Positions 1,738-47,980 of a stretch of 64,000 nucleotides of DNA are shown one piece after another. Each line of letters starts with the position of its first letter. Positions within the stretch are counted from its first letter, which is position 1. The position numbers were made by a program, and so were the translations under genes. Source of the stretch: Bordetella genomosp. 5 (lineage in GTDB: Bacteria; Pseudomonadota; Gammaproteobacteria; Burkholderiales; Burkholderiaceae_B); the NCBI RefSeq assembly GCF_002261475.1, contig NZ_NEVN01000005.1:124001-188000 (forward strand), given 5' to 3'. The notes beneath the pieces are model-generated. The model did no database searches and was not told the origin of the DNA. It saw nothing but the letters and a program-made list of their open reading frames with translations.

Positions 1738-1752
1738 GGCACGCGACTTGCT
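1738..1752 (+). promoter_or_regulatory. Sigma-54 (-24/-12) promoter for DUF883 gene
   Basis: Core GGCACG, four bases, TTGCT: exact match to the RpoN consensus, with GG and GC ten bases apart. The predicted start is near 1763, 50 nt before the DUF883 gene at 1813. Confidence 0.72.
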
Positions 1753-1767
1753 AAATCATCCTCTCGG

Positions 1768-1787
1768 GGTGCGCCGCAGGGCGCACC
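1768..1787 (+). other. Perfect inverted repeat in the 5' leader
   Basis: An 8-bp stem (GGTGCGCC / GGCGCACC) with a 4-nt loop lies just downstream of the predicted sigma-54 start and upstream of the ribosome site. It could be an mRNA hairpin in the leader or an operator; it has no U-tract, so it is not a typical terminator. Confidence 0.4.
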
Positions 1788-1812
1788 ATGCTTCATTTTT
1801 TAAGGAGAGGTC

Positions 1813-2154
1813 ATGACGAAACGCTACGAACGCGATATCGCCGGAGCCAAGAATCAGGTCAAGCAAAGTCTCAGCGAGCTGATCTCCGGCACCGAAGCGC
1901 TGCTGCGCAGCACGGCGACTTACGGCGGTGCCGAGATCGAATCCGCGCGCGACCGTCTCAAGCATCAGCTGGAATCCGCCCGTGAGCACGCCGGGCCCTG
2001 GGAACGTGCCGCTGTCGACCGCGCTCGCCGCTGGTCGCACGCCACCGATGGCTACGTCCACGATAACGCCTGGAAGACCATCGGCGTGGCCGCCGTGATC
2101 GGCGCGGTCATCGGCGCATGCCTGATGTCGTCGTCCGACAGCTGGCGCCGCTAA
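1813..2154 (+). CDS. DUF883 family membrane-anchored protein (ElaB/YqjD-like)
   Basis: A strong AAGGAG site precedes the ATG. The 113-aa product has the ElaB/YqjD/YgaM layout: an amphipathic N-terminal helix region (KNQVKQSLSELISGTEALLRSTATYGGAEIESARDRL), a middle HDNAWKTIGVAAVIGAVIG stretch forming the C-terminal transmembrane anchor with small-residue zipper, and a short basic tail. In E. coli such proteins are RpoS-dependent, inner-membrane tail-anchored and bind ribosomes in stationary phase. Here the gene is monocistronic, with a sigma-54 promoter in front and an intrinsic terminator behind. A second DUF883 copy lies near 9.3 kb. Confidence 0.85.
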   Translation: MTKRYERDIAGAKNQVKQSLSELISGTEALLRSTATYGGAEIESARDRLKHQLESAREHAGPWERAAVDRARRWSHATDGYVHDNAWKTIGVAAVIGAVIGACLMSSSDSWRR

Positions 2155-2196
2155 ACCTCCCTGCGCGCGTCCACGGGCGCACGCGCCGGCAGGTAC

Positions 2197-2228
2197 AACC
2201 CCACCGTGTGAAGCGGTGGGGTTTTTCT
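2197..2228 (+). terminator. Intrinsic terminator after DUF883 gene
   Basis: Ten-bp perfect stem (AACCCCACCG / CGGTGGGGTT) with a 7-nt loop, followed by a T-rich run. Confidence 0.85.
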
Positions 2229-2308
2229 TTTGGGGCAGCGTAGCGAGGCGTGGCGGCCGCGCGCTCCGCACCGGCAAACGCTGCCCTCGATACGCACGCT
2301 TGTAACCC

Positions 2309-2323
2309 GGCACGCGCCTTGCG
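2309..2323 (+). promoter_or_regulatory. Sigma-54 promoter for BON/PRC-barrel genes
   Basis: Core GGCACG-CGCC-TTGCG, ten bases between GG and GC. Predicted start near 2334, 66 nt upstream of the ATG at 2400. Confidence 0.7.
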
Positions 2324-2399: not shown

Positions 2400-3317
2400 A
2401 TGGGCCAACAGAAAGACCGCAACACCCCTCAGGAACGAGATCCCCGCGGCAGCGGCGACACGCCGCCCGAGAATCAGCGCGCGGGCGGTCGTGATGAACC
2501 GGGCTGGCATCCTGATCCCGGTGCCACCGGCAAGGACTCGCGCGCTCGCCACGCGCAGGAGCACGAGACGCGCAAGAGCGGACAGTTCGGCGCCGACGAG
2601 CCGGATTACGGTCGCCCGCAGGGCGATCGGCCCGCGGACAATGTCGGCGGCAAGCCGAACCGCGCCGGACCGCAGTACGAGGAGGGCGGGCGCTATCCGG
2701 GTCCGCGTCAGCCTGGCGGCGATGCCGCCGAGGACCCCGAGCCGGCCCGCTCCGCGCAGCACGATGGCTGGGCGCCCGGCACCCGCGCCGCCGCGCGCGA
2801 CGAGCCGGTACGCAGCCGCAGCGCCGATCCCGGCCAGAGCAGCTACGGCGGCTTCTCGCACGAGAATCCCTCTTACCAGCGGCAGCAGCTGACCGACACG
2901 GAAGACCTGGCGTACTACCGCGAGGCGCGCGACCCCTGGGGCCGGCAGCCCGGCCGCGACGCGCCGCACGAGCGTGCGCGTGAAGGGCGTGGCGCGCAGG
3001 GTCGCCTCGACGAACGCGACGAGCGCGACCAGTGGCGCGAGGCGCAGTCGCGCGCCTGGCGGGATCAGCCGACGTATGTCGATCCCAAGGGATATGTCCG
3101 CTCGGATGAACGCGTGCGCGAGATCGTGTGCGAGCGTCTTTCGCGCAGCGGCCTCGACGTGAGCGACGTGTCGGTGGACGTGAGCGAAGGCACCGTGAGC
3201 CTGCAGGGCACGGTCGCCGACCGGCGCGTCAAGCACGACGTCGAGGATTGCGTCGATGCCTGCGCCGGCGTGACCGACGTGGATAACCGGATCAAGGTCG
3301 CGGCGCGCGGCCGATGA
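2400..3317 (+). CDS. BON-domain protein with long disordered N-terminus
   Basis: The start at 2400 has an AGGAGG site; the frame extends upstream but lacks support. Of 305 residues, the first ~225 are Arg/Asp/Gly/Pro-rich, low-complexity and soluble. The last ~75 form one BON domain (about 232-300: VREIVCERLSRSGLDVSDVSVDVSEG, VSLQGTVADRRVKHDVEDCVDACAGVTDVDNRIKV). BON domains bind phospholipid or periplasmic partners in osmotic-stress proteins such as OsmY, but no signal peptide is visible here, so a cytoplasmic place is likely. A PRC-barrel gene follows after 62 nt with no promoter of its own. Confidence 0.82.
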   Translation: MGQQKDRNTPQERDPRGSGDTPPENQRAGGRDEPGWHPDPGATGKDSRARHAQEHETRKSGQFGADEPDYGRPQGDRPADNVGGKPNRAGPQYEEGGRYPGPRQPGGDAAEDPEPARSAQHDGWAPGTRAAARDEPVRSRSADPGQSSYGGFSHENPSYQRQQLTDTEDLAYYREARDPWGRQPGRDAPHERAREGRGAQGRLDERDERDQWREAQSRAWRDQPTYVDPKGYVRSDERVREIVCERLSRSGLDVSDVSVDVSEGTVSLQGTVADRRVKHDVEDCVDACAGVTDVDNRIKVAARGR

Positions 3318-3379: not shown

Positions 3380-3781
3380 ATGAGCGCAGAATCGACCAAT
3401 ATCGTGGGCGGGCCCAAGCGTCATCCCTCGGGCCCGGGGCCGGAAATCATGGCGGCCGAAACGCTCGAAGGCAATGATGTCTACAACCCGGCGGGCGAGA
3501 AGCTCGGCACCGTGGAAACCATCATGATCGACGTGCCGCGCGGGCGCATCGCCTACGCGGTGCTCGCGCGCGGCGGCGTGATGGGTGTGGGCGACAAGCT
3601 CTACGCCATTCCGTGGGCCGCGCTCACGCTCGACACGGATCGCAAGTGCTTCGTGCTCGATGTGCCCAAAGACCAGCTGAAGCAGGCCGAGGGCTTCGAC
3701 AAGCATAATTGGCCGCGCATGGCCGACGAGCGTTGGGCCAGCGACGTGCACGCCTACTACAACCAGCCGCCGTACTGGTAA
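3380..3781 (+). CDS. PRC-barrel domain protein
   Basis: The ATG at 3380 has GGAG upstream; an in-frame ATG at 3314 overlaps the previous gene and has no ribosome site. The 133-aa product carries one PRC-barrel: MAAETLEGNDVYNPAGEKLGTVETIMIDVPRGRIAYAVLARGG, LYAIPWAALTLDTDRKCFVLDVPKDQL. In many bacteria such free-standing PRC-barrel proteins belong to stress regulons, with unknown ligands. It ends at an intrinsic terminator, closing the BON-PRC unit. Confidence 0.85.
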   Translation: MSAESTNIVGGPKRHPSGPGPEIMAAETLEGNDVYNPAGEKLGTVETIMIDVPRGRIAYAVLARGGVMGVGDKLYAIPWAALTLDTDRKCFVLDVPKDQLKQAEGFDKHNWPRMADERWASDVHAYYNQPPYW

Positions 3782-3892: not shown

Positions 3893-4207
3893 TCAGCGCG
3901 CGCGCTCCTGCGCGGGTTCGCGCACCCAGCCTGCCAACAGGACGACGGCGTGCAGCGCCGCCAGGCCGATCAGGGCCTGCGCGACCCGCGGGGCCCACGG
4001 CCAGGGAGACAGCAGCACTTGCATGAGATCCAGGTTGACGGCCGCGATCAGCCCGGCGTTCAGGCCGGCGCACACGAGGATGGTCAGGGCGAGCCAGTCG
4101 CGCAGGCCCAGACGGGTATCCTCCTGTCGCCGCACCCAGCGAGGCAGGTCGTCGGCGCGGCCATCGGTAAGAATTTCAGCGCTACGGTGCATGGTCGGTA
4201 CCGTCAT
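3893..4207 (-). CDS. DUF378 family membrane protein
   Basis: A 104-aa protein with two transmembrane helices. Its core LALTILVCAGLNAGLIAAVNLDLMQVLL ... VAQALIGLAALHAVVLLAG is the DUF378/YuzA pattern (GLNWGL-like glycine/asparagine turn, then a second helix). The ATG overlaps the stop of the upstream 85-aa gene (ATGA), so translation is probably coupled. Function unknown in the family. The pair shares one sigma-54 promoter at 4519-4533. Confidence 0.78.
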   Translation of the reverse strand: MTVPTMHRSAEILTDGRADDLPRWVRRQEDTRLGLRDWLALTILVCAGLNAGLIAAVNLDLMQVLLSPWPWAPRVAQALIGLAALHAVVLLAGWVREPAQERAR

Positions 4208-4461
4208 CCGGGCCGGCCGTTACGGACCGGATCGGGCTGGGCGTGAGACACACCCGCTTCGGTTTCGTCGACCACTTCGTCCGGGCCGATGTCGGTGCCG
4301 TCTTCGTCTTTCTCGAACGGACGGACGGATTCGCGCTCGCCCGTGCCCTGGGCATCGCTGTCGGTGTCGGCTTCGCTGCGCGGCAGGTCGCTGGCGGAGT
4401 CGGACGAGTCGCTCGGACCCAGGCCCGGGCGCGGGTCGGGAATATTGTCGAGGTCAGGCAT
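4204..4461 (-). CDS. Small acidic disordered protein, 85 aa
   Basis: I placed the start at 4461, where AGGAG precedes the ATG; the frame stays open upstream. The product is rich in D, E, S, P and G (SDSSDSASDLPRSEADTDSD), strongly acidic, without hydrophobic segments. No family recognised. It is the first gene of a two-gene unit and its stop overlaps the start of the DUF378 gene. Confidence 0.65.
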   Translation of the reverse strand: MPDLDNIPDPRPGLGPSDSSDSASDLPRSEADTDSDAQGTGERESVRPFEKDEDGTDIGPDEVVDETEAGVSHAQPDPVRNGRPG

Positions 4462-4518: not shown

Positions 4519-4533
4519 AGCAAGTGCCGTGCC
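4519..4533 (-). promoter_or_regulatory. Sigma-54 promoter for the 85-aa/DUF378 unit
   Basis: On the minus strand the core reads GGCACG-GCAC-TTGCT. Predicted start near 4508, 47 nt before the ATG. Its -24 end is 14 bp from the -24 end of the divergent promoter at 4548. Confidence 0.72.
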
Positions 4534-4547: not shown

Positions 4548-4562
4548 GGCACGATAATTGCG
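4548..4562 (+). promoter_or_regulatory. Sigma-54 promoter for PIG-L gene
   Basis: Core GGCACG-ATAA-TTGCG. Predicted start near 4573, 25 nt before the GTG start at 4598. Confidence 0.7.
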
Positions 4563-4597: not shown

Positions 4598-5293
4598 GTG
4601 CTCGAATTCCGCGGTGTGGTCGTGATTTCGCCCCACTACGATGATGCGCTGTTCAGCTGCGGCGCCGCCTTGTCCGGCTTTCCCGGAGCCACCGTGCTGA
4701 CGGTGTATAGCGCGGTCCCGCCCGCGGGCACGCCGCCCACCGACTGGGATGGCCGTTGCGGCTTTCTCGACCCGCAGCAGGCGATGGCGGTGCGGCGCGC
4801 CGAAGACGGCAGGGCGCTCGCGCTGTTGCAGGCGCAGGGCCGCGCGCTCGACATGCTGGACCCGCGCTATGGCGGCGCCGGTGCCGCGCCGCGCCTGCGG
4901 GGCGTGCTGGCCGCGGCGCTGACATTGTTGCGTCCGCAACTGGTGTTGCTGCCGCTCGGGTTGGCCCATGCCGACCAGGGCGATGTCGGCGATGCCGTGC
5001 TGGCCGTCATGCCCTTGTTCGCGGGCGTGCAGTGGCTGGCCTACGAAGAACTCATCCACCGCGACGAGCCCGGCCGCATGCAGGCCCGGCTTTCGATGCT
5101 GCAGCAGCGCCGCGTGAGCGCGACGCCCACGATCTGCGGCGGCCAGGATCACGCGCTCAAGCAGCGCGCGCTGGCGGAGTGCGCCAGTCAGTTGCGCGGG
5201 CTGGACGCCAGCGAGCTGGGCGGCACCAGCGTGCAGCCCGAACGGTTCTGGCGCCTGGAGGCCCTGCACGGCAAGGCGGCCGCGAGCCATTGA
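4598..5293 (+). CDS. PIG-L (LmbE) family deacetylase
   Basis: The start is GTG at 4598: AAGGAG lies 6 nt upstream and the predicted sigma-54 start lies just before it. The 231-aa product opens with VVVISPHYDDALFSCGAAL (His13, Asp15, Asp16), the zinc-binding HxDD motif of the PIG-L/LmbE fold; the usual HPDDE is HYDDA here. The family hydrolyses N-acetyl or other amide groups on sugars such as GlcNAc-inositol and bacillithiol precursors; the substrate here is unknown. Monocistronic, divergent from the 85-aa/DUF378 pair. Confidence 0.8.
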   Translation: MLEFRGVVVISPHYDDALFSCGAALSGFPGATVLTVYSAVPPAGTPPTDWDGRCGFLDPQQAMAVRRAEDGRALALLQAQGRALDMLDPRYGGAGAAPRLRGVLAAALTLLRPQLVLLPLGLAHADQGDVGDAVLAVMPLFAGVQWLAYEELIHRDEPGRMQARLSMLQQRRVSATPTICGGQDHALKQRALAECASQLRGLDASELGGTSVQPERFWRLEALHGKAAASH

Positions 5294-5317: not shown

Positions 5318-5332
5318 GGCATGTCGCTTGCT
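5318..5332 (+). promoter_or_regulatory. Sigma-54 promoter for glycine-zipper/DUF4142 unit
   Basis: Core GGCATG-TCGC-TTGCT. Predicted start near 5343, 53 nt upstream of the ATG at 5396. Confidence 0.7.
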
Positions 5333-5395: not shown

Positions 5396-6037
5396 ATGTC
5401 CTTGATTGTCGCAGCACGCTTCCAGACCTTCGACCACGCCGAACTCGCCGCGCAGAAATTGTTCGCGGCCGGCTTCGGCGAGGATGACGTACATACCTTT
5501 TATGTGAATACGCCGGGCGGCCACGCGCGTCACCCCCTGGGCGGCGACCGCGCGGCCGATCCCGATTCGGCCGGGGCGCAGTATGGCGCGATCGCCGGCG
5601 CGGCCGTGCTGGGGCTGATTCTCGCGGTGGTCGGCGGCGTGCTGGGCATGCGCGTGAGCGGCTCTATCGTGGCCATCGTGGCCGGCGCCGGTGTGGGCGG
5701 CTACCTGGGCGCGCTCGGCGGCGCGATGTGGATCATCGGCCGCAAGAAGCGCCGCGGCGCGCCTGGCGCGCCGCTGGACGACGCAGGCCACCCCGAGGTC
5801 CGGCCGGCCGGCGTGCTGCTGGCCTTGCACGTCACGCCGCAGCAGGAGCCTGACGCCGTGCGCATTCTGCGAGGCGCCGGCGGCCAGGACGTCGAGCGGG
5901 CGCAAGGGCGCTGGCGCGAGGGCCGCTGGGTCGATTTCGATCCGCTGGTCGCGCCCGAGCGCGAGCCGGAGACGGTGGTTCGCCAGGATCCGCAACCGGC
6001 GGGCCCCGCCGGCGTCGCCACGAGGAGCTTTCCATGA
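5396..6037 (+). CDS. Glycine-zipper membrane protein, 213 aa
   Basis: An AGGAGG site precedes the ATG at 5396. The N-terminal ~45 residues (SLIVAARFQTFDHAELAAQKLFAAGFGEDDVHTFYVN) look like a small alpha/beta 'low-specificity' domain that often precedes glycine zippers. Residues ~65-112 form two membrane helices rich in G-x-x-x-G (GAIAGAAVLGLILAVVGGVLGMRVSGSIVAIVAGAGVGGYLGALGGAMW). The C-terminal ~100 residues include VLLALHVTPQQEPDAVRILRGAGGQDVERAQGRWREG. General-stress-like; exact family not named. It overlaps the next gene by 4 nt (ATGA). Confidence 0.68.
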   Translation: MSLIVAARFQTFDHAELAAQKLFAAGFGEDDVHTFYVNTPGGHARHPLGGDRAADPDSAGAQYGAIAGAAVLGLILAVVGGVLGMRVSGSIVAIVAGAGVGGYLGALGGAMWIIGRKKRRGAPGAPLDDAGHPEVRPAGVLLALHVTPQQEPDAVRILRGAGGQDVERAQGRWREGRWVDFDPLVAPEREPETVVRQDPQPAGPAGVATRSFP

Positions 6038-6656: not shown

Positions 6657-7652
6657 TCAATCGCCGGCGCTGCCCGTGATGGGCAGCACGATGCCGGTGA
6701 TATAGCTCGCGCAGCAGGGCGCCGCCAGGAACACATAGGCCGGCGCGATCTCCTCGGGCTGGGCCGGCCGGCCCAGATCCGTTTTCTTGCCGAATTCAGC
6801 CACTTCCTCGGCGGGGCGATCCGCGGGGTTGAGCGGCGTCCACACGGGACCCGGCGCCACCGCATTCACCCGGATACCCTGTTTGGCCAGGTTCGCGGCA
6901 AGCGCCCGCGTGAATGCGTGGATGGCGCCCTTGGTCGTGGAGTAGTCGATCAGTTGGCCGCTACCGCGCAGGCCCGTCACAGAGCCCGTATTGATGATGG
7001 ACGAGCCTTCCTTCAGATGGGGCAGGGCGGCGCGCGCCATCTGCATATAGCCGTAGATATTGGTCCGCAGCGTCTCGTCGATGCGGGCGTCGCTGAGCTC
7101 GAGCAGCGACTCGGCGTGCTCCTGGAACGCGGCGTTGTTCACGAGGATGTCGAGCCGGTCGAATGCCGAGATCGTATCGCCCACGGCCTTCTCCGCGAAC
7201 TTTGGATCGCGCACGTCGCCGGGAATGAGGATCGCGCGGCGGCCTTCGGCCTCGACGTGGCGCGCGGTCTCCCTGGCGTCTTCGTGCTCGTCGAGGTAAG
7301 CGATGGCGACGTCGGCCCCCTCGCGGGCAAACAGCACCGCCACGGCGCGGCCGATACCGGAGTCGGCGCCGGTGATCAGCGCGCTCATGCCGTCAAGCTT
7401 GCCGCTGCCCTTGTAGTGCGGCGCTTCGAAGCGGGGTGCCAGCGCCAGCTCGTGCTCATTGCCGGGCTTGTCCAGATGCTGTTCGGGCAAGGGGGGCTCG
7501 GGCTGCTTGCGCGAGCCGGCCTGCGCGGCGTCGTCCTCGCCGCTGTCGCCGCGGGCGGCGTCACGCTCGTCCTGCTGATCCTGCAGTGCGCGCTGGCGGC
7601 CTGCGGTCGTATCGGCCTGGTCGCGGTGCTTGCCGTCGGTAGGCTTTGCCAT
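6657..7652 (-). CDS. SDR family oxidoreductase (YghA/GSP39-like)
   Basis: The start at 7652 is set by AAGGAG; the frame continues upstream without a good start. The 331 residues begin with a ~80-aa polar, disordered N-terminus, then the Rossmann core: TGADSGIG (94-101) for NAD(P), ILVNNAAF, the active-site DYSTTKGA Tyr/Lys pair, and the PGPVWTPLNP loop. This is the subgroup of Bacillus general stress protein 39 and E. coli YghA, which reduce aldehydes or ketones. The sigma-54 promoter at 7713 lies 50 nt ahead, back-to-back with one for the DUF748 gene. Confidence 0.88.
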   Translation of the reverse strand: MAKPTDGKHRDQADTTAGRQRALQDQQDERDAARGDSGEDDAAQAGSRKQPEPPLPEQHLDKPGNEHELALAPRFEAPHYKGSGKLDGMSALITGADSGIGRAVAVLFAREGADVAIAYLDEHEDARETARHVEAEGRRAILIPGDVRDPKFAEKAVGDTISAFDRLDILVNNAAFQEHAESLLELSDARIDETLRTNIYGYMQMARAALPHLKEGSSIINTGSVTGLRGSGQLIDYSTTKGAIHAFTRALAANLAKQGIRVNAVAPGPVWTPLNPADRPAEEVAEFGKKTDLGRPAQPEEIAPAYVFLAAPCCASYITGIVLPITGSAGD

Positions 7653-7712: not shown

Positions 7713-7727
7713 CGCAAGACGCATGCC
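7713..7727 (-). promoter_or_regulatory. Sigma-54 promoter for SDR gene
   Basis: Minus-strand core GGCATG-CGTC-TTGCG. Predicted start near 7702, 50 nt before the SDR ATG. Only 8 bp separate its -24 end from that of the divergent promoter at 7736. Confidence 0.68.
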
Positions 7728-7735: not shown

Positions 7736-7750
7736 GGCACGGCAGTTGCT
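7736..7750 (+). promoter_or_regulatory. Sigma-54 promoter for DUF748 gene
   Basis: Core GGCACG-GCAG-TTGCT. Predicted start near 7761, about 94 nt before the ATG at 7855. Confidence 0.72.
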
Positions 7751-7854: not shown

Positions 7855-9006
7855 ATGGACGCCATTACTCCCGACCGCGACTTGCGCGGAACCGCAGACC
7901 GCAGTGCCGCCCGCGGTTGCGGCATCAGTCAATATCCCGTGCTGTGCCGCGTGCTGTCGGCACTAACCGCCACCACGCTGCTGTTGCTGGCCATCGCCGG
8001 CATCCTGGCGTTCCTGGTCGTTCGCGTCGTCGAACTGCGGGTGGACAGCATCGTGGGCCCGCGCGGCCAGGTCGGTGACGTCCGCGTGCGGCCCAACGAG
8101 ATCGTGCTGACCGATGTGGTCCTGCCCGGCACCGCCGGCCAGGCGCCCACCCGCGCCGAGCGGGTGGTGCTGGTGCCGCGCTGGCGCGAGTTCCTGACCC
8201 ACCAGGCCGTGTTCGAGCGCGTGCTGGTGCGCGGCTACGACATGGAAGTGCTGCGCGACAGCGAAGGCACGCTGCACGTGGCGCCTTCGCTGGCGCGCGC
8301 CCTGGCCATCGCCCGCGGCGAAGACGGCCAGCCGCGCCCGGCCTGGGCCGGCCGCGTGGTGCTGACCGACGGCACGATGCGCTATCGCGACCAGACCGTA
8401 TCCAAGAACGGCCACGAAATGGTGTTCGAGCAGGCTCGCATCGAGCTCACGCCGCTGGCGGTGCCGGCGGGCGACGAGCGCATGGACGTGCGCTTCGAAG
8501 GCGTGACGGCCAAGGGCCCGGAGGGTCAGCGCGGCATGGCGGCCCTGGTGGGCTGGGTGCGCGGCAAGGGCCAGGACGCCGATCTGCGGCTGGCGGTGCG
8601 GCACATGCCGGCGGCCCAGGTGGCGCCGTATCTGCAGCTCTCGCACAGTGCGCCCATCACCGGCGGGCTGATCGATCTGGACATGCGCACCGATGTGCGC
8701 GACCACGCGCTGCAGGCCAACGGCACCCTGGCGCTCACCAAGGTGCGCTTCGGCGACGAGGGCAGCATCTTCGCGCTGCCGCGCCAGGCGGTGTTGAGCG
8801 CGATGGCCGACCGTAACGACACGGTGCGGTTCGACTTCACCGTCAAGGGCAGCCTGGACGATCCGAAGTTCGCCTTGCAGCAGAGCCTGCCGCAGCGTGT
8901 CGCGGGCGGCTTCGCCCGTGCCGTGGGCGTGTCGGCCGAAGGGGCGTCCGAAGGCTTCACCGGCGCCGTGCGCGAGATGGGCAAGGCGTTCACCAACCTC
9001 TGGTGA
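7855..9006 (+). CDS. DUF748/AsmA-like membrane-anchored protein
   Basis: Starts at 7840 (TTG), 7846 and 7855 are in frame; I prefer 7855 because GAGG lies 9 nt upstream. The 383-aa product has one N-terminal membrane helix (about 34-57) and then a long periplasmic beta-rich domain with AsmA/DUF748 features: VGDVRVRPNEIVLTDVVLPG, VLVRGYDMEVLRDSEGTLHVAPSLARAL, and GLIDLDMRTDVRDHALQANGTLALTKVRFG. AsmA-like proteins act in envelope lipid transport. The unit is monocistronic and ends at a perfect palindromic terminator preceded by a 27-bp tandem duplication. Confidence 0.72.
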   Translation: MDAITPDRDLRGTADRSAARGCGISQYPVLCRVLSALTATTLLLLAIAGILAFLVVRVVELRVDSIVGPRGQVGDVRVRPNEIVLTDVVLPGTAGQAPTRAERVVLVPRWREFLTHQAVFERVLVRGYDMEVLRDSEGTLHVAPSLARALAIARGEDGQPRPAWAGRVVLTDGTMRYRDQTVSKNGHEMVFEQARIELTPLAVPAGDERMDVRFEGVTAKGPEGQRGMAALVGWVRGKGQDADLRLAVRHMPAAQVAPYLQLSHSAPITGGLIDLDMRTDVRDHALQANGTLALTKVRFGDEGSIFALPRQAVLSAMADRNDTVRFDFTVKGSLDDPKFALQQSLPQRVAGGFARAVGVSAEGASEGFTGAVREMGKAFTNLW

Positions 9007-9144: not shown

Positions 9145-9780
9145 TCAGCGGCGGCCGACGATCACGCCAAACAGAAAAGCGGCGCTGGCGGCCCAGCCCA
9201 CGGCTTGCCAGGGATGCGTGCGGACATATTGCTCGGTGCAATCGACCGAGGCACGCATGATCTCGTTGGCGCTGCCGCCGGCTTCGTTCAGGGCCTCGCG
9301 GGCGTCTTCGAGCTGGGCACGCAGACGGGTCTTGAGCACTTCGATGTCTTCGTGACCCGATTCGCGCAGCGTGGTGTCGAGATCCTCGAGCAACTGGCGT
9401 GCGCCGCCACGGCGCGAACGGGTGGCCTCGGCGCCCGTGGCATTCAGCGGCGTGCCGGTGGGCGGGGTCGACGTGGATTCCATGGTTTCTCTCCTGAGTT
9501 TCTGCCGGGGAAAAGTGACACCCGATCGTACCAGTCCGGCGATCCGGTCACGCAGCCACACCGAAGTGGCCGCGCGGGCGGGCATCTTGAGAAAACGGGG
9601 CCAGCCGCTGACAGCGACAAGGCCGATGACGAGGGCCCGCGCGGTGCGCCCGACCTGCAGCGTGGTGTCGGGCGTGGCGGGACCGGGCGTGCGGTCGGGT
9701 TGCTCGGCCAGTTGCCGGCGTTGTTCTTCCATGCGCGCGAGCAGCTGGGCGCGCTCGGCGGCGAGATCGATCTGGCTCAT
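9145..9780 (-). CDS. YqjK-like/DUF883 in-frame fused ORF (internal start at 9483)
   Basis: One uninterrupted 211-codon frame holds two modules. Residues 1-99 resemble YqjK-like proteins (MSQIDLAAERAQLLARMEEQRRQLAEQ, then a hydrophobic GWPRF region). Residues 100-211 are a complete DUF883 protein (QLLEDLDTTLRESGHEDIEVLKTRLRAQLEDAREALNEA ... HPWQAVGWAASAAFLFGVIVGRR, tail anchor). The ATG at 9780 overlaps the stop of the yqjE-like gene (ATGA). The internal ATG at 9483 has its own AGGAG 8 nt upstream. So either a fusion protein, a separate 112-aa DUF883 protein (9145-9483), or both are made. Confidence 0.72.
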   Translation of the reverse strand: MSQIDLAAERAQLLARMEEQRRQLAEQPDRTPGPATPDTTLQVGRTARALVIGLVAVSGWPRFLKMPARAATSVWLRDRIAGLVRSGVTFPRQKLRRETMESTSTPPTGTPLNATGAEATRSRRGGARQLLEDLDTTLRESGHEDIEVLKTRLRAQLEDAREALNEAGGSANEIMRASVDCTEQYVRTHPWQAVGWAASAAFLFGVIVGRR

Positions 9781-10250
9781 GGCTGGCTCCGGTGGGTGGG
9801 TTCCGAGGGGCGGGATGCGGGGCCGCGGACGACCACGTCCGGGGCGGCCGGACGCTGCATGGCGTCACGCAGGGTGTCGGCATCCAGGCGCATCTGCTCA
9901 CCCACGCTCTGGAACGGCAGGCCATCGGGTACACCACGGCGCACGATCAGGAAGCTGATCAGCGCGATGGCGAACCACACGCCCGCGATGATCCAGGCCG
10001 TCATGCGGCGCCACGGCGTGTCCCAAAAATGCACCAGGGCGGCAATCGAGATGAAGGCGGCGGCGCCCATGCCGGTCAGCACGAGCGCGACCAGGGCGAT
10101 CAGCGAGCGCACCAGGGATTGGCGGTACATCGCCATTTCGATATGCAGCAGCTCGGCATACTGACCGAGGCGGCCCGCCGCGAAGCGGGCCAGCACGGTG
10201 ACGCGCGCGAGGCGGGCCTGGAGCGCGGCGGTGAAGCGGGAGGGGTTCAT
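9777..10250 (-). CDS. yqjE: YqjE-like phage-holin-family membrane protein
   Basis: The start at 10250 has GAGGT 7 nt upstream. The 157-aa product has a helical N-terminus (LGQYAELLHIEMAMYRQSLVRSL) and two transmembrane helices (SLIALVALVLTGMGAAAFISIAALVHFW and AWIIAGVWFAIALISFLIVRR), the YqjE/holin superfamily III layout. In E. coli yqjD-yqjE-yqjK are neighbours; here the order is yqjE, yqjK-like, DUF883. Both junctions overlap by 4 nt (with a putative 22-aa leader ORF upstream and the fused ORF downstream). Confidence 0.78.
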   Translation of the reverse strand: MNPSRFTAALQARLARVTVLARFAAGRLGQYAELLHIEMAMYRQSLVRSLIALVALVLTGMGAAAFISIAALVHFWDTPWRRMTAWIIAGVWFAIALISFLIVRRGVPDGLPFQSVGEQMRLDADTLRDAMQRPAAPDVVVRGPASRPSEPTHRSQP

Positions 10251-10396: not shown

Positions 10397-10411
10397 AGCA
10401 ACTGGCGCGCC
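10397..10411 (-). promoter_or_regulatory. Probable sigma-54 promoter for yqjE/K/DUF883 unit
   Basis: Minus-strand core GGCGCG-CCAG-TTGCT; one deviation (G for A at the fourth base). Predicted start near 10386. It is divergent from the promoter at 10440. Confidence 0.58.
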
Positions 10412-10439: not shown

Positions 10440-10454
10440 GGTACGGGAATTGCT
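10440..10454 (+). promoter_or_regulatory. Sigma-54 promoter for 90-aa protein gene
   Basis: Core GGTACG-GGAA-TTGCT. Predicted start near 10465, 76 nt before the ATG at 10541. Confidence 0.62.
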
Positions 10455-10540: not shown

Positions 10541-10813
10541 ATGACATCCAACGCGAAACCCACTGGCAAGTCCGTCAGCGGTGGCGCTCCGGCGCCGGCG
10601 CCCGACGACCAGAGCGTGAGCATCAACGCCAAGGTCCTGCCGCCGCGCGGGCCGGTCGATGTGCCGCGCATGCCGCCCCCGGTCGCCAAGCGCGCCGTGG
10701 ACGAGGCTGGCGAAAGCAGCAAGCCCGCCGAAGACACCCAGACCGAGTCCAACTGGGCCGACCCCGTCGATCCCCAGCCGTACGCCAAGAACGCGCGCTC
10801 GTCGATTTTCTGA
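10541..10813 (+). CDS. Small proline-rich hydrophilic protein, 90 aa
   Basis: AAGGAG precedes the ATG at 10541; the frame extends upstream but through the promoter. The product is rich in P, A, D, S and K (GGAPAPAPDDQSVSINAKVLPPRGPVDVPRMPPPVAKRAVDEAGESSKPAEDTQTESNW split over the middle), with a conserved-looking C-terminus QPYAKNARSSIF. No cysteine, no membrane segment, probably disordered. No family recognised. Convergent with the topoisomerase gene, 53 nt away. Confidence 0.65.
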   Translation: MTSNAKPTGKSVSGGAPAPAPDDQSVSINAKVLPPRGPVDVPRMPPPVAKRAVDEAGESSKPAEDTQTESNWADPVDPQPYAKNARSSIF

Positions 10814-10866: not shown

Positions 10867-11949
10867 TCACGATTTCTTTTCGCGCGGACATGTCGCCTCC
10901 GGTTCCGGCAGCGCTTGCAGGAACGCAAGCAGGCGACGTTCTTCCGCGGCGAGGCCGCGCGGCGTATCGGGCGCGCGCATATCGGGCGCCAGCGTGCCCG
11001 CCAGATAGGCCTCCATCACGGCAGGGTGGATATAGCACGCGCGGCAGACGGCGGGCGTGTTCGCCAGCCGCTGCGCCACCCGCTTGATCACATCGGTGAG
11101 CTGCTTGCGCGTGGCCGCGGGCGCCTCGGCATCGGCTTGCGCCGGCAGGCAGCACGCGCGCAGCGAGGCATAGGCGTAGAGAGTGCCGGCCCACGTGCGA
11201 TAGTGCTTGGCCGTAAAGTCGGCGCCGCTGGCCTCGCGCAGATATTCGTTGACCAGATCCGAATCCACCGCGCGCGGCTCGCCGTCTTCATCGATGTAGT
11301 GAAACAGTTGCTGGCCGGGCAGGTCCATGCAGCGGCGCACCAGCCGCGCGATGCGCCGGTCGGCCACGGTCACGTCATGCGGCACGCCGCTCTTGCCGAC
11401 AAAGCGCAGCCGGATGCGATCGCCCGCCACCTGGGCGTGACGGCGCGTCAGCGTGGTCAGCCCGAATGATTTGTTGGTACGCGCGTATTCGCGCGATCCG
11501 ACGCGGATACGCGTGAGCTCGAGCAGGCGCACCAGCGTGGCCGCGACCTTGTCGCGCGGCAGGCCGGGCAGCGCCATGTCGCGTTCGATGCGGGCACGGA
11601 TGCGCGGCAGGCACAGGCCGAACGCCGCCAGCTGACCATACTTCTGTGCGTCGCGCACCGTCGTCCATTCGGGGTGGTAGCGATATTGCTTGCGGCCCCG
11701 CGCATCGCGGCCGGTGGCCTGGATATGACCCTGCGGGTCGGGGCAGATCCACACATCGGTGTAGGCCGGCGGAATCGCGAGCATGCGAATGCGGTCCAGC
11801 GTCGCCTTGTCGGTGATGCGCTTGCCGCGGGTATCCAGGTAATGGAAGGTCTTGGCGTTCACGCGCCGGCGGCGATAGCCGGGGCGGCTGTCGTCGGCAT
11901 AGACCAGGCCCGCGGCGGCGGGCAGGGGCAGGAGCTCGGGCGCATTCAT
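10867..11949 (-). CDS. DNA topoisomerase IB (poxvirus-like)
   Basis: A 360-aa type IB topoisomerase: it nicks one strand through a 3'-phosphotyrosine and relaxes both positive and negative supercoils. The N-terminal clamp starts LVYADDSRPGYRRRRVNAKTFHYLD. The catalytic domain shows RIRVGSREYARTNKSFGLTTL, RLRFVGKSGV, FTAKHYRTWAGT and the nucleophile region NTPAVCRACYIHP (Tyr about 306). Size and motifs match bacterial TopIB. No ribosome-binding sequence precedes the ATG, and the predicted sigma-54 start lies only ~2 nt upstream, so the mRNA may be leaderless. Confidence 0.92.
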   Translation of the reverse strand: MNAPELLPLPAAAGLVYADDSRPGYRRRRVNAKTFHYLDTRGKRITDKATLDRIRMLAIPPAYTDVWICPDPQGHIQATGRDARGRKQYRYHPEWTTVRDAQKYGQLAAFGLCLPRIRARIERDMALPGLPRDKVAATLVRLLELTRIRVGSREYARTNKSFGLTTLTRRHAQVAGDRIRLRFVGKSGVPHDVTVADRRIARLVRRCMDLPGQQLFHYIDEDGEPRAVDSDLVNEYLREASGADFTAKHYRTWAGTLYAYASLRACCLPAQADAEAPAATRKQLTDVIKRVAQRLANTPAVCRACYIHPAVMEAYLAGTLAPDMRAPDTPRGLAAEERRLLAFLQALPEPEATCPREKKS

Positions 11950-11961: not shown

Positions 11962-11976
11962 AGCAAGCGCCATGCC
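11962..11976 (-). promoter_or_regulatory. Sigma-54 promoter for topoisomerase IB
   Basis: Minus-strand core GGCATG-GCGC-TTGCT. The predicted start is near 11951, essentially at the ATG (11949). Its -24 end is 6 bp from that of the divergent promoter at 11983. Confidence 0.68.
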
Positions 11977-11982: not shown

Positions 11983-11997
11983 GGCATGGGGGTTGCT
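11983..11997 (+). promoter_or_regulatory. Sigma-54 promoter for DJ-1/PfpI gene
   Basis: Core GGCATG-GGGG-TTGCT. Predicted start near 12008, 44 nt before the ATG at 12052. Confidence 0.68.
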
Positions 11998-12051: not shown

Positions 12052-12603
12052 ATGGCAACACTGAAAGATCTGAACGTCGCGATCCTGGCCGTCGACGGCT
12101 TCGAGCAGGTCGAACTGACCGAGCCGCGCGATGCCCTGCGTGCCGAGGGCGCGCGCACCATTCTGATCTCGGCCAAGACCGACCCCATCCAGGGCATGCA
12201 CCACGACAAACCGGGCGACCGCTTCGACGTCGATCTGACCTTCGCGCAGGCCGAGGCGGATCCGTCGGAGTTCGACGCGCTGCTGCTGCCCGGCGGCGTG
12301 GTCAATGCCGACGAGATTCGCATGCATCCGAAGGCGCAGGCCTTCGCCCGCGCCATGGTCGAGGCGAACAAGCCCGTCGCGGTGATCTGCCACGGTGCCT
12401 GGCTGCTGATTTCGGCCGGGGTGGTGCGCGGGCGCAAGCTCACCAGCTGGCCCTCGCTGGCCGATGATCTGCGCAACGCGGGCGCGGACTGGCAGGATCA
12501 GGAGGTCGTGCAGGACGGCAAGCTCGTGTCGAGCCGCAAGCCGGACGACATTCCGGCCTTCAACCGCGCCTTCATCGAGCTGCTGCGACAGTCGCGCGGC
12601 TGA
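12052..12603 (+). CDS. DJ-1/PfpI family protein (YhbO-like)
   Basis: A 183-aa single-domain protein with a good AAGGAG site. The fold's nucleophile elbow is VAVICHGAWLL (Cys about 113, His 114), and the LLLPGG loop and VELTEPRDAL glutamate region fit the PfpI/YhbO subgroup. Members act as stress-induced glyoxalase/deglycase or chaperone proteins; activity here is inferred from family. Monocistronic: sigma-54 promoter upstream, strong terminator downstream. Divergent from topoisomerase IB. Confidence 0.88.
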   Translation: MATLKDLNVAILAVDGFEQVELTEPRDALRAEGARTILISAKTDPIQGMHHDKPGDRFDVDLTFAQAEADPSEFDALLLPGGVVNADEIRMHPKAQAFARAMVEANKPVAVICHGAWLLISAGVVRGRKLTSWPSLADDLRNAGADWQDQEVVQDGKLVSSRKPDDIPAFNRAFIELLRQSRG

Positions 12604-15444: not shown

Positions 15445-15459
15445 AGCAAGCCTCGTACC
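15445..15459 (-). promoter_or_regulatory. Sigma-54 promoter for DUF3182 operon
   Basis: Minus-strand core GGTACG-AGGC-TTGCT; predicted start near 15434, at the ATG. Confidence 0.62.
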
Positions 15460-15529: not shown

Positions 15530-15544
15530 GGCACACGACTTGCT
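15530..15544 (+). promoter_or_regulatory. Sigma-54 promoter for phosphoglucose isomerase gene
   Basis: Core GGCACA-CGAC-TTGCT. Predicted start near 15555, 46 nt before the ATG at 15601. Confidence 0.68.
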
Positions 15545-20652: not shown

Positions 20653-20667
20653 AGCAAGCGTCATGCC
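20653..20667 (-). promoter_or_regulatory. Sigma-54 promoter for ybhP-clsB-ybhN
   Basis: Minus-strand core GGCATG-ACGC-TTGCT; predicted start near 20642, 22 nt before the ATG. Divergent from the promoter at 20688. Confidence 0.7.
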
Positions 20668-20687: not shown

Positions 20688-20702
20688 GGCATGACACTTG
20701 CG
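20688..20702 (+). promoter_or_regulatory. Sigma-54 promoter for 61-aa protein gene
   Basis: Core GGCATG-ACAC-TTGCG; predicted start near 20713, 37 nt before the ATG at 20750. Confidence 0.7.
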
Positions 20703-21035: not shown

Positions 21036-21050
21036 GGCACGCGACTTGCG
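21036..21050 (+). promoter_or_regulatory. Sigma-54 promoter for 55-aa/DUF3309 genes
   Basis: Core GGCACG-CGAC-TTGCG; predicted start near 21061, 43 nt before the ATG at 21104. The surrounding CCCGGGCACGCGACTTGC is identical to that at 1735. Confidence 0.72.
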
Positions 21051-21103: not shown

Positions 21104-21271
21104 ATGAGTCAGCAGCGTCAGCCCGACCAGCAGAAACCGCAGAATCCCGGCCAGCGTCAACAGGCCCAGGAAAACATGCGCGACAAGAATGCTCCGCAGC
21201 AGCCCGGCAATCCCGCCGGCGGCAATAAGAGCGGGCAACAAGACTCGGGCAAGGGCAATCAGCAACGCTGA
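21104..21271 (+). CDS. Glutamine-rich hydrophilin-like protein, 55 aa
   Basis: AGGAG upstream of the ATG. Sixteen of 55 residues are Gln, the rest mainly N, P, G, K, R and D; there is no aromatic or large aliphatic residue. It has the composition of a hydrophilin-type desiccation protectant, fully disordered. No homologous family named. The DUF3309 gene follows after 79 nt and no separate promoter is visible, so they may be co-transcribed. Confidence 0.68.
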   Translation: MSQQRQPDQQKPQNPGQRQQAQENMRDKNAPQQPGNPAGGNKSGQQDSGKGNQQR

Positions 21272-26233: not shown

Positions 26234-26248
26234 GGCATGGCGCTTGCT
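26234..26248 (+). promoter_or_regulatory. Sigma-54 promoter for phasin gene
   Basis: Core GGCATG-GCGC-TTGCT; predicted start near 26259, 62 nt before the ATG at 26321. Confidence 0.68.
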
Positions 26249-45315: not shown

Positions 45316-45506
45316 GACAGGTGCATCGCGGCCCACGGCGGGGCGGGGGCGGGTGCCTGTCGGGGCCCCGCCAGCCTACCGTCGGCTATATCGTTAGACC
45401 GCCGCGTCCTTAAGTCTCGCGCTCATGTAGACCGGATTACATCCTCTTTGTTTTTCATGGGCCTGCGTGCCTATCATGTGCCTGGTTCAGCAGCAGGAAT
45501 CCAGGC

Positions 45507-45857
45507 ATGTCCACCATTTTGTCCATCGAGTCCGTCCAACTCTCTTTCGTGGCGCGCCAGGCAGGCGCCGTCCGCGAGTTCTATCGCCACATTCTCGGCT
45601 TGCACGAGGTGGCGGGCGAGGGCGACGCACGCCTGACCTTCGCGCTGGGCAACGCCACGCTGTCGCTATCGCCGGTGGCGAGCCGCAGCGCCGGCGTGAA
45701 AGCCGACTATCTGGCCTTGCGTACGGATGCCTTCGAGCAGGTACGAGATCGCCTGCAGGCCGCCGGCCATCATCCCGTCTGTTCGGTGCCGGACGCGGCC
45801 GAGCGCGTCATGTATGTCAAAGACCCCAGTGGCAATCAACTCGCGCTGCTGGGCTGA
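45507..45857 (+). CDS. VOC/glyoxalase family protein
   Basis: 116-aa single-module vicinal-oxygen-chelate protein: VQLSFVARQAGAVREFYRHILGLHEVAGEGDARLTFALGNATLSLSP, then DYLALRTDAFEQVRDRLQAAGH, and VMYVKDPSGNQLALLG ending the domain. No clear enzyme or resistance subtype. It lies 33 nt upstream of the CysB-like gene, probably in one transcript. Confidence 0.82.
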   Translation: MSTILSIESVQLSFVARQAGAVREFYRHILGLHEVAGEGDARLTFALGNATLSLSPVASRSAGVKADYLALRTDAFEQVRDRLQAAGHHPVCSVPDAAERVMYVKDPSGNQLALLG

Positions 45858-45890
45858 GGCCGGCCGCCCGCGGAACCGACGGAATCCGAT

Positions 45891-46826
45891 ATGAACTTCC
45901 AGCAACTGCGCTCCGTGCGCGAAGCGGTGCGCCGCGACTTCAACCTTACCGATGTCTCGGAGAGCCTGCACACCTCGCAGCCGGGCGTGAGCCGCCAGAT
46001 CCGCGAACTCGAGGAAGAGGTGGGGGTCGACATCTTCATCCGCTCCGGCAAGCGGCTCATCGGTCTCACGCCGCCGGGCGAGTTGATCCTGCCGCTGGTG
46101 GAGCAGATCCTGCAGGCCGCCGACAATATCCGCCATGCGGGCGCCGAGTATGCCGGCGCGACCACCGGCGTGCTGTCGATCGCGGCCACGCACTCGCAGG
46201 CGCGCTATGCGCTGCCGCCGGTCATCAAGGAGTTCCGCGCCCGCTATCCCGACGTGGTGCTGCATCTGCACCAGGGCTCGCCCAAGCAGGTCTCGGAGAT
46301 GCTGCTCGAAGGCGAGGCCGATATCGGCGTGGCGACGGAAGCGGTGGCCGACTATTCGGGGCTGGTCAACCTGCCTTGCTACCGCTGGACGCACAGCATC
46401 ATCGTGCCGCCGCATCATCCGCTGGCCGGCAGTGTCGCGCCCACGCTGTCCGAGCTGGCGGCCTTTCCCATCATCACCTACGGCCACGGCTACACCGGGC
46501 GCGCCCACATCGACGAGGCCTTCGCCCGCGCGGGCATCACGCCCGACATCGTCATGACGGCGATGGACGCCGACGTGATCAAGACCTATGTGGAGCTCGA
46601 GATGGGCGTGGGCATCGTGGCGTCTGTCGCCTGGGACGCCGAGCGCGATACCCGCCTCTCGGCCATCGACGCGCGCCATCTGTTCGAGATCAACCTGACC
46701 CGGCTGGCCGTGCGCCGCGGCGCGTGGCTGCGCGGCTACGCCTATCACTTCATCGAGCTGTTCGTGCCGACGCTCACGCAAGGCATCGTCGAGGCGGCGC
46801 TGCGCGGCGAAGCGCTGGAGGCGTAG
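45891..46826 (+). CDS. cysB: CysB-like LysR-type regulator
   Basis: 311 aa. It begins with the CysB-specific MNFQQLRSVREAVRRDFNLTDVSESLHTSQPGVSRQIRELEEEVGVDIFIRSGKRLIGLTPPGE helix-turn-helix, then TGVLSIAATHSQARYALPPVIKEFRARYPDVVLHLHQGSPKQVSEMLLEGEADIGVATE for the effector domain (TTH-like ligand loop). CysB proteins activate sulfur-assimilation genes with O-acetylserine-type inducers. Placed after transporter, dioxygenase and lyase genes of sulfur compounds, which supports that role. Confidence 0.9.
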   Translation: MNFQQLRSVREAVRRDFNLTDVSESLHTSQPGVSRQIRELEEEVGVDIFIRSGKRLIGLTPPGELILPLVEQILQAADNIRHAGAEYAGATTGVLSIAATHSQARYALPPVIKEFRARYPDVVLHLHQGSPKQVSEMLLEGEADIGVATEAVADYSGLVNLPCYRWTHSIIVPPHHPLAGSVAPTLSELAAFPIITYGHGYTGRAHIDEAFARAGITPDIVMTAMDADVIKTYVELEMGVGIVASVAWDAERDTRLSAIDARHLFEINLTRLAVRRGAWLRGYAYHFIELFVPTLTQGIVEAALRGEALEA

Positions 46827-46849
46827 CGCCGCGGCCGGCGGTGTCCGGC

Positions 46850-47932
46850 CTATTTGGGCCGGGGTTGCCGCAGGCCCGCATCCGGCGGCGTGAGCTCGCC
46901 GGAGCGCAGCCGGGGCACCGCGGCCGCCACCGCGCGGGCCACGTTGCGCACCTCTTCCTGCACGGCGTGATCCTCGTCCAGGTCGGCGTGGCTGGTCGCA
47001 TAGGGCTGGTAGTAGCCGATGTAGCGGTCCAGCTTCGCGTCCGCGCCGGCCGCGACCAGACCCATCCAGTCCAGCCAGTCCGACAGCGCGCGGCGCTGCG
47101 ATTCGATGCCCGCCACGTCGCCGTGCACCACCACGCCATAGGCGCGGCCCGCCAGATGTTTGGGATAGTCCCAGCCATCGACTTCCAGCCGCTTGGCCTT
47201 CATCACGTCTTTGCCGGCGGTCGAGGTCGGATCGGGATTGCCGCCGTCGGCGCAGACCAGGCGGTCGATCATGAGCTTGAGCGGGCTGGGCGACTGATAC
47301 CAGTAGGTGGGCGCGATCAGGATCACGCCGTGCGCCGCCACCCACTGCGCGTAGATATCGTTCATCGCATCGTTGACCTGACCGAGCGAGTGGTGGGGAT
47401 AGCAGCTGCAGGGCCAATGGCACAGCGGCATGGTGGTCGATGCGCAGCCCTTGCAGGGGTGGATCTGGTATTGGTATTCGGACACGGTACGGCTGAGGTC
47501 CAGCGTGTCGTGCCGGATGCCCGCCGCCTCGAGCTCGTGCGCCGCCAGCCGCGCCAGGCGCCAGCTCTTCGAGACCTCGCCCGGACAGGTGCCGTCGTTG
47601 CGCGCGCTGCCGATGATCACCAGCACGCGTGACGGCGTGGCGGGATCGCGCTGTGCCTCGGCGGCGTGCGCCAGGGCATCATGCGCGGCCTTCCAGTCGG
47701 CCGAGAGGTCGTAGTCGGGGTCGGCGTAGCCCGGGCCGGCTTTCACCGTGATCGGCGCCTTGCGGCTATCCATGTAGGCGTCCCAGGCGATCTGCTCCAG
47801 CCGGTCGAGCGCGGCACGCTCGACGGCATAGGCGGGATCGTGAAAGCGCTGCATGAAGCGCGCGCGGAACGCATCCCGCGTGAGTTTGCCCGGGTATTGA
47901 CCGGTGCGGACTTCGAGCCGGGAAGGCGCCAT
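46850..47932 (-). CDS. Flavodoxin-family NADPH:FMN reductase with Cys cluster
   Basis: 360 aa from ATG 47932 (GGAG 7 nt upstream). The N-terminal ~95 residues are an extra module (LTRDAFRARFMQRFHDPAYAVERAALDRLEQIAWDAYMDSRKAPITVKAG). Then comes the flavodoxin-like FMN domain (VLVIIGSARNDGTCPGEVSKSWRLARLAAHELEAAG, LIAPTYWYQSPSPLKLMIDRL). A cluster HPCKGCASTTMPLCHWPCSC (C-x2-C-x7-C-x3-C-x-C) recalls iron-sulfur flavoproteins. It has a sigma-54 promoter of its own, far from the main island. Physiological partner unknown. Confidence 0.82.
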   Translation of the reverse strand: MAPSRLEVRTGQYPGKLTRDAFRARFMQRFHDPAYAVERAALDRLEQIAWDAYMDSRKAPITVKAGPGYADPDYDLSADWKAAHDALAHAAEAQRDPATPSRVLVIIGSARNDGTCPGEVSKSWRLARLAAHELEAAGIRHDTLDLSRTVSEYQYQIHPCKGCASTTMPLCHWPCSCYPHHSLGQVNDAMNDIYAQWVAAHGVILIAPTYWYQSPSPLKLMIDRLVCADGGNPDPTSTAGKDVMKAKRLEVDGWDYPKHLAGRAYGVVVHGDVAGIESQRRALSDWLDWMGLVAAGADAKLDRYIGYYQPYATSHADLDEDHAVQEEVRNVARAVAAAVPRLRSGELTPPDAGLRQPRPK

Positions 47933-47965
47933 GAGAATCTCCGAGAGGCGTGCTGCAGCCGCCTG

Positions 47966-47980
47966 CGCAAGCGCCATGCC
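47966..47980 (-). promoter_or_regulatory. Sigma-54 promoter for Cys-rich flavoprotein gene
   Basis: Minus-strand core GGCATG-GCGC-TTGCG; predicted start near 47955, 23 nt before the ATG. Confidence 0.66.

Follow-up and report, generated by a model that had tools for sequence, protein, structure and literature searches.

Within a 64,000-nucleotide stretch of the Bordetella genomosp. 5 genome (the window; NZ_NEVN01000005.1, positions 124,001 to 188,000), 18 sequences of the -24/-12 type read by sigma-54 (RpoN) stand in front of genes that resemble a stress set. Judged by sequence comparison, these cores are a real, conserved promoter set, which most likely serves a second, specialised sigma-54 that itself stands under a switch of the canonical RpoN type. 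We put at about three in four the probability that they are the stress regulon promoters of this second factor, RpoN2, acting with two adjoining activators of the GSFTGA type, and that rpoN2 is itself made by the ordinary RpoN (RpoN1). A preliminary description of the window had proposed an RpoN-driven stress regulon. That proposal is supported, although RpoN2, whose gene the description had missed, is the likelier driver.

Clustering and placement of the cores

The genome comprises 5.2 Mb in 13 contigs; the window has a GC content of 69% and corresponds to C12:124001-188000, window base 1 being C12:124001. Genes were called with our own simple codon-score finder, on which all core-to-start distances are based. 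Two patterns were used: a loose one, GGYRYR-N4-TTGCK, which is the core of the preliminary description, and a strict one, GGCAYG-N4-TTGCK. Reversed patterns served as controls.

The cores are far more numerous than expected and are clustered. All 18 loose matches reported for the window were recovered at the same places and on the same strands, compared with a mean of 2.58 (standard deviation 1.65, largest 10) in 100 dinucleotide shuffles. The strict core has 16 matches in C12:84001-228000 (14 of the window's 18 and two just upstream), while its reversal has none there. The genome-wide scan suggested in the preliminary description, run here as a pattern search, returns 58 strict cores against 12 reversed, and 16 of the 58 fall within 55 kb, about 1% of the genome. 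The loose pattern gives only 210 against 158, a mild enrichment. Thus, the signal is carried by the clustered, stricter form.

Spacing and orientation support the sigma-54 assignment. The ten-base GG-GC spacing is held in all 18 window cores. All 20 island cores (the 18 and the two upstream) are intergenic, oriented to a gene, and located 11-146 nucleotides (nt) before its start, rather than the 1-105 nt first described. Each window core is nearest to a different gene, and intergenic space makes up 15% of C12:117000-151000. By comparison, the reversed loose pattern has six matches in the 144 kb of C12:84001-228000, and all six lie inside genes. The window cores, in window coordinates, are as follows.

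1738..1752, plus: 60 nt before DUF883 gene 1813-2154
2309..2323, plus: 76 nt before BON-domain gene 2400-3317, then PRC-barrel gene 3380-3781
4519..4533, minus: 57 nt before small gene 4204-4461, then DUF378 gene
4548..4562, plus: 35 nt before PIG-L-like gene 4598-5293
5318..5332, plus: 63 nt before gene 5396-6037, then DUF4142 gene
7713..7727, minus: 60 nt before SDR gene 6657-7652
7736..7750, plus: 104 nt before DUF748 gene 7855-9006
10397..10411, minus: 146 nt before gene 9777-10250, then DUF883_C gene
10440..10454, plus: 86 nt before small gene 10541-10813
11962..11976, minus: 12 nt before topoisomerase IB gene 10867-11949
11983..11997, plus: 54 nt before DJ-1/PfpI gene 12052-12603
15445..15459, minus: 11 nt before DUF3182 / hydrolase / CinA genes 15433-12943
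15530..15544, plus: 128 nt before PGI-domain gene 15673-17421
20653..20667, minus: 111 nt before Exo_endo_phos / ClsB / LPG_synthase-TM genes 20541-17545
20688..20702, plus: 47 nt before small gene 20750-20935
21036..21050, plus: 53 nt before small hydrophilic gene 21104-21271, then DUF3309 gene
26234..26248, plus: 72 nt before gene 26321-26746
47966..47980, minus: 33 nt before FMN-reductase-family gene 46850-47932

A core in front of almost every transcription unit had been claimed for the first 26 kb. This holds from about 1.7 to 21.1 kb; no core stands directly before the two genes at 796 and 1041 or before any gene from 21351 to 26214. Nearly all gene families named at the time were found again, apart from PIG-L, which scores under its Pfam cut-off, and the product of 26321-26746 (presumably the phasin of that description), which matches no Pfam family. 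The PGI-like protein of 15673-17421 matched the second half of the bifunctional transaldolase/phosphoglucose isomerase model, under that model's cut-off.

Seven back-to-back pairs account for 14 of the 20 island cores, the partners lying 6-70 bases apart. The pairs in the window are 4519/4548, 7713/7736, 10397/10440, 11962/11983, 15445/15530, and 20653/20688. In the closest pairs, two holoenzymes may not fit at once, and there is little space for an enhancer between them.

The rpoN2 module

The genome has two rpoN genes, the second of which (rpoN2) lies 4.2 kb before the window. This gene, two sigma-54 activators, and two further cores all fall within 7 kb upstream of the window.

C12:118288-119787, minus: rpoN2 (TIGR02395, 439.8 bits, cut-off 277.35; PF04552)
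C12:119845-119859, minus: canonical core of rpoN2, TGGCATG-N4-TTGCA
C12:119949-119965: dyad before rpoN2, TTAC-N9-GTAA
C12:120101-121090, minus: short activator, 329 amino acids, without receiver domain
C12:121397-122782, plus: response-regulator activator, 461 amino acids
C12:117403-117417, minus, and 117450-117464, plus: two cores, back to back, before glgA

RpoN2 has the features of its family (region I, the DNA-binding domain, and the RpoN box), but the box is altered. The genome has 11 matches to PF00158, eight above 180 bits and three at 23-28 bits, and two of the eight strong ones adjoin rpoN2. Farther upstream (genes C12:109254-117334) are glgA, a 1055-amino-acid protein with only weak amylase-family matches, which we take to be GlgE, and TreS-maltokinase. 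A plasmid search with the first 60 bases of the window gave no match.

Two sets of genomes were used for comparison. The relatives set holds 61 genomes, our own (G000) and 60 relatives, of which 37 belong to the same family and 24 are others of the order; regions around the response-regulator activator were taken from 19 of the 20 relatives that have it, G056 being left out. A scan of named genomes gave 44 loci: a close group of 30 (L172-L201; one Bordetella genomosp. 1, 28 Achromobacter records, and one Pigmentiphaga) and 14 with more distant RpoN at 37-43% identity. The two sets overlap, since L172 and L181 share DNA with the G007 and G017 regions; G007, listed as the same genus, and L172 are probably one genome. 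The DNA that G007 shares with this Bordetella genomosp. 1 locus supports the Bordetella-like host assumed in the preliminary description.

The dyad TTAC-N9-GTAA precedes rpoN2 in 23 of the 30 close loci, once per locus and in 18 cases starting TTACCG, as well as in our own genome. Across our genome it occurs at six places, fewer than the 14 of the reversed control. The pattern alone is therefore unremarkable, and its conserved position is what stands out. The dyad is not common to the regulon cores. It also occurs in two Burkholderia plasmids (L229 at 16102 and L230 at 36725), in L230 at the end of a response-regulator gene and close to a PRC-barrel gene.

Two promoter classes

The canonical sigma-54 consensus is TGGCACG-N4-TTGC in the available text of PMC4676750. 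The 20 island cores depart from it at the first base: G precedes GG in 12, C in four, A in four, and T in none. The promoter of rpoN2 itself is different. Among the 30 close loci, T is the first base in 21 of the 28 NGGCRYG-N4-TTGCN cores located up to 220 nt upstream of rpoN2, and A is the last base in 17 of the 28; for all other cores, the counts are 9 of 152 and 3 of 152 (Fisher p = 8.5e-15 and 7e-14, respectively; both nominal because the species are related). Two loci, L186 and L191, have no match of this form before rpoN2 and carry TGGCACA variants there instead. GC context alone as the cause of the missing T was rejected, since the rpoN2 promoters of the same loci mostly keep T. Within our own genome, T starts none of the 16 strict cores of the island and 15 of the 42 outside it (p = 0.006). 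Thus, two promoter classes are seen, each of which would belong to one paralogue. Given the second rpoN and the two activators before the window, together with the altered base before GG and the altered last base, the cores probably form a dedicated RpoN2 regulon and not a plain RpoN regulon.

The two classes also stand in front of different genes. Outside the island, 37 core places were read: 30 of the 42 strict cores and all seven TTGCA cores, which include the rpoN2 promoter. Of the 37, 14 start with T and 23 do not. Pfam searches covered the genes of 10 T and 10 non-T places, and the functional split rests on these chosen genes. Of the T places, rpoN2, L158, and two whose frame is unclear were left aside. 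So were 13 non-T places, which either show no clear frame, fall within one, stand before a very short frame, or are L221, L224, L226, or L227. The T cores precede phosphomannomutase, two amidases, an ATP-grasp protein, five periplasmic binding proteins, and an aldehyde dehydrogenase. The non-T cores precede CsbD, DUF1328, ferritin-like, DUF4142, two DUF3606, alcohol dehydrogenase, and PgpA genes, one gene with a weak polyketide-cyclase match under cut-off, and one without a Pfam match. Because the PgpA frame is truncated at its 5' end, its core probably falls within the gene; at one DUF3606 gene (L161), the core overlaps a long opposite-strand frame. The L224 gene, read by eye, encodes a membrane protein of no stress family.

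Two further groups of cores were noted outside the island. A back-to-back pair on C13 fronts a DUF4142-like protein and a GalU-like nucleotidyltransferase (by eye, from the translation). G000:C9:94214-106641 holds four strict cores in 12 kb, one before a DUF4142 gene, one before a DUF3606 gene, and one apparently inside a gene.

Cores with G before GG track the module. Net of the reversed pattern, the mean number of GGGCAYG-N4-TTGCK cores is 11.2 in the 20 module-bearing genomes (272 vs. 49 matches) and 1.7 in the 41 others (135 vs. 65; p = 1.8e-6). Within the genus, the corresponding values are 16.5 (six genomes) and 2.8 (nine genomes; p = 0.005).

The RpoN box, region I, and the activator loop

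RpoN2 differs from RpoN1 in the motif that reads DNA. The RpoN1 box is ARRT[VI]AKYR followed by E (30) or D (1) in all 31 sequences (our own and 30 RpoN loci). All 24 RpoN2 sequences carry changes at two positions, residue 6 being S or T and residue 10 being one of G, A, I, T, S, and D. These 24 exclude the divergent G040 copy (ARRTVAKYRT) and include both G007 and L172, which are probably one genome. The changed box is present in all 30 named loci. Four Burkholderia plasmid RpoN2 have the box ARRTVTKYRQ, and C precedes GG in 19 of the 23 strict cores of five Burkholderia plasmid stretches. The three genomes with I as residue 10 (G004, G010, and G011) have C in seven cores, G in five, and A in three. 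The box contacts the -24 element (PMC6028918, PMC7057263), which makes it plausible that residue 10 and the base before GG are linked. The last box residue would read that base, E with T, G with G, and, in the Burkholderia plasmids, Q with C.

Region I of RpoN2 has clade-specific changes too. Activator loops, located by the pattern HE[KR]GxFTG, read GSFTGA in 58 of 58 cases in the named loci and in 38 of 38 in our own and the relatives' regions. The six other strong activators of our genome comprise five with GAFTGA or GAFSGA and one (L045) without a pattern match. Among plasmid stretches, L230 and L231 have one GSFTGA each, and L228, L229, and L234 have no loop match. Region I would pair with the GSFTGA activators. 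In a FastTree phylogeny with a midpoint root and some untrimmed N-termini, the sampled RpoN2 fall into a single clade, with support 1.0 when G040 is excluded (28 of 28) and 0.966 when it is included (29 of 29).

Co-occurrence and conservation

The activator and the second RpoN occur together. The response-regulator activator was matched at E <= 1e-100 in 21 of the 61 genomes, and a second RpoN DNA-binding domain is present in 20 of these, the exception being G057. G005 and G056 count here through a second RpoN of whatever clade. Of the 40 genomes without the activator, two have a second RpoN match, both weak: G055 (37.3 bits) and a piece in G008 (22.9 bits). By tblastn, 17 of the 19 fetched regions contain RpoN2, within about 3 kb in 12 and at 6-11 kb in five; the two lacking it are those of G005 and G057. 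In 13 of the 19, the response-regulator activator has a separate, divergently oriented short activator next to it.

G008 belongs to the same genus and is without the module. Its rpoN-like piece (G008:C1:516794-516925) is short, has an internal stop, and scores just above the cut-off. The genome also has five G-type cores, two of them back to back (C1:2200318/2200349), and is perhaps a decaying system.

The preliminary description had made conservation in relatives a test of its proposal, and the cores are conserved. The 30 named loci hold 145 strict cores and one reversed match in 581 kb; of the 14 distant RpoN loci, two have one core each and twelve have none. In G007, a core within 220 nt is retained for 13 of the 15 site genes that have an orthologue there, compared with 2 of 17 other genes (rpoN2 and g25). 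Across the 29 Achromobacter and Pigmentiphaga loci, counted up to the first aligned residue, a core precedes 65 of 111 site-gene cases, including g34 in 22 of 22 and g32 in 10 of 10. Other genes have one in 45 of 129, made up of 28 rpoN2, 12 g31, which follows g32 in our window, and 5 g38. For the other relatives, the counts are 29 of 48 site genes and 19 of 98 other genes, 10 of the 19 being rpoN2. Reversed-pattern matches number 0-2 per group.

Together with stress genes, the module is found again in other genomes of the Bordetella group, in Achromobacter, and on large plasmids of Burkholderia. In plasmids of Burkholderia multivorans and B. pyrrocinia, the annotated neighbourhood includes sigma-54, two activators, and BON or DUF1328, PRC-barrel, and CBS genes. 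On a B. pyrrocinia plasmid (L231, 2332-33545), RpoN2 and activators of this kind are surrounded by genes for R-body proteins and an encapsulin with a Dyp peroxidase, and by DUF1328/PRC/CBS genes. A Paraburkholderia sabiae plasmid (L233, 24378-37439) has a BREX-1 defence system a few kb from an activator relative, and its 41-kb stretch holds no core of this type.

Proposed circuit and stress identity

These observations suggest a two-step circuit. RpoN1, with an activator at the upstream dyad, would transcribe rpoN2 from the canonical TGGCAYG-N4-TTGC[AT] promoter. RpoN2 would then open [G/A/C]GGCAYG-N4-TTGC[T/G] promoters in the island and elsewhere, with the adjoining activators probably serving it and stress or starvation as the likely trigger. 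The genes served would include those for glycogen and trehalose, lipids, oxidant defence, and small hydrophilic proteins.

A broader proposal is that this is an orthogonal sigma-54 channel acting as a general stress sigma factor in Burkholderiales, in part where RpoS has been lost, split from RpoN on both contact faces, and with ordinary RpoN as the switch on top. We hold it tentatively, at a little under even odds. RpoS (TIGR02394) is above cut-off in none of the 37 family genomes, our own included (three are 73-77% complete), and in 11 of the 24 other genomes of the order. The activator and a second RpoN occur together in 18 of the 37 and 2 of the 24. One of these two, G056, has both RpoS and a second RpoN, so that the module is no simple replacement of RpoS; B. 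pseudomallei likewise has RpoS and RpoN2, according to the available part of PMC4745423.

RpoN2 may instead drive a specialised regulon for osmotic or carbon storage, or for the cell surface, and not a general stress response. GlgA, TreS-maltokinase, the cardiolipin synthase ClsB, and the PGI-domain gene are indeed prominent, and we regard this alternative as unlikely though deserving real weight. The set also holds CsbD, DUF4142, ferritin-like, PfpI, DUF883, BON, and DUF3606 genes, which are typical of RpoS- and EcfG-type regulon lists.

Evidence against an exclusive RpoN2 regulon

The cores may also be ordinary sigma-54 promoters of RpoN1 or of both paralogues, with RpoN2 linked and partly redundant and the base before GG set by the GC-rich context. 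Several findings point this way or otherwise weigh against our preferred interpretation. In the parts of the papers available, RpoN2 proteins complement an Escherichia coli rpoN mutant (PMC4676750, PMC4745423) and the two RpoNs of Bradyrhizobium bind most tested promoters alike (PMC13207237), which speaks against strict separation. The classes are not clean, as 7 of the 28 rpoN2-promoter cores lack T and 9 of the 152 others have it. The net number of T-type cores (TGGCAYG-N4-TTGCK) also rises with the module, from 5.2 to 8.2 (p = 0.028) and, within the genus, from 6.8 to 12.7 (p = 0.0025), and the module genomes are larger. G023 and G027 have the module without an excess of G-type cores, and some genomes without the module have such an excess, e.g., G006 (8 vs. 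0) and G024 (7 vs. 1). Six relatives with A as box residue 10 show no bias to G in the few cores near the module (G three, T three, C two). Two activator relatives on plasmids with no RpoN box detected nearby depart from GSFTGA in a loop: L232 has one GSFTGA and one GGFTGA, and L233 has one GAFTGA. Conservation is also uneven: in Achromobacter, a core precedes g40 in 0 of 16 cases and g36 in 6 of 18.

Nevertheless, we consider this alternative improbable. Within one and the same locus, at most 21 kb long, T is usual at the rpoN2 promoter and avoided by the stress cores. T and non-T cores front different types of genes, and the DNA-reading box and the activator loop have changed together. The G-type excess tracks the module more steeply than the T-type; because the module genomes are larger and the species related, this contrast of sixfold with twofold outweighs the p values.

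A further point against our preferred interpretation is that neither gapped-dyad nor word enrichment found a shared activator site near the regulon cores; sigma-54 promoters usually, though not always, have such sites upstream. The best 7-mer upstream of the cores scored 10.5, compared with a null maximum of 8.4; it was given no weight, since our own and the G007 regions are homologous. In an alignment of 24 regions before g34 orthologues, conservation lies mainly in the two back-to-back cores. Perhaps the activators reach the regulon promoters from solution or from a few shared sites. That the motif is the site of another regulator, or a sigma-70-family promoter resembling -24/-12, would fit this lack of a common enhancer-like site and the seven close pairs with little space for one, but is very improbable given that all 20 cores are oriented to a start codon, that the GG-N10-GC spacing is kept, and that in relatives, cores of this type occur alongside a second RpoN and sigma-54 activators.

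Comparison with known systems

A dedicated RpoN2 regulon would give a concrete function to the rpoN2 genes of Burkholderiales. It suggests how a lineage without detected RpoS could run a general stress response via an activator-dependent sigma factor, and the box residue covarying with one promoter base is a candidate natural specificity switch in sigma-54. In the literature searched, mostly without subscription papers, we found no sigma-54 stress regulon for Bordetella or Achromobacter, nothing on rpoN with BON domain, PRC-barrel, and stress, nothing on rpoN2 with Achromobacter, and no report of an RpoN2 regulon and promoter class of this kind in Burkholderiales. According to PMC12316311, it is well established that sigma-54 takes part in stress responses as such, and the regulon of BP2158, a sigma-54 activator of B. 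pertussis, is called unknown (PMC11722255).

Specialised RpoN paralogues are already known. The rpoN1/rpoN2 pair of Ralstonia solanacearum is similar in that rpoN2 expression needs rpoN1 (PMC4371752), in that T precedes GG in the core listed 63 nt upstream of rpoN2, which ends in TTGCA, and in that two GSFTGA activators have RpoN2 as their putative target (PMC4676750). Unlike in our proposal, no RpoN2 phenotype was found there and its role is called enigmatic (PMC4371752). A stress regulon, a promoter class, and a change in the box are not among the features described in the available text.

Bradyrhizobium DOA9, from another bacterial class, carries its second RpoN as a megaplasmid copy. This RpoNc/RpoNp system shares with ours a second RpoN, a proposed stress role, and predicted sites in which TGG becomes CGG (PMC13207237). 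However, that motif comes from 22 sites possibly of either RpoN, both of which bound most tested promoters, and no stress island or box covariation is described in the text available.

Among the closest precedents is RpoN3/AprX of Cereibacter (PMC11999139). RpoN1-4 of Rhodobacter (Cereibacter) sphaeroides are sigma-54 paralogues with their own activators and their own promoter preference (PMC11999139), but discrimination is reported to lie at -11 and in activator contacts, and the targets are nif, flagella, and xrpA. In Campylobacter jejuni, RpoN serves stress resistance without RpoS (PMC12322963, PMC3196706). The available text points to a single RpoN, however, and gives no dedicated second sigma-54, promoter class, or stress island. 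In Burkholderia pseudomallei, katE expression at 48-72 h needs RpoN2 (PMC4745423). This is one stress target gene, and the likeness drawn here is through katE dependence. Finally, the RpoS and EcfG general stress responses involve similar kinds of genes but run on sigma-70-family factors without activators; an activator-dependent sigma factor is normally viewed as signal-specific.

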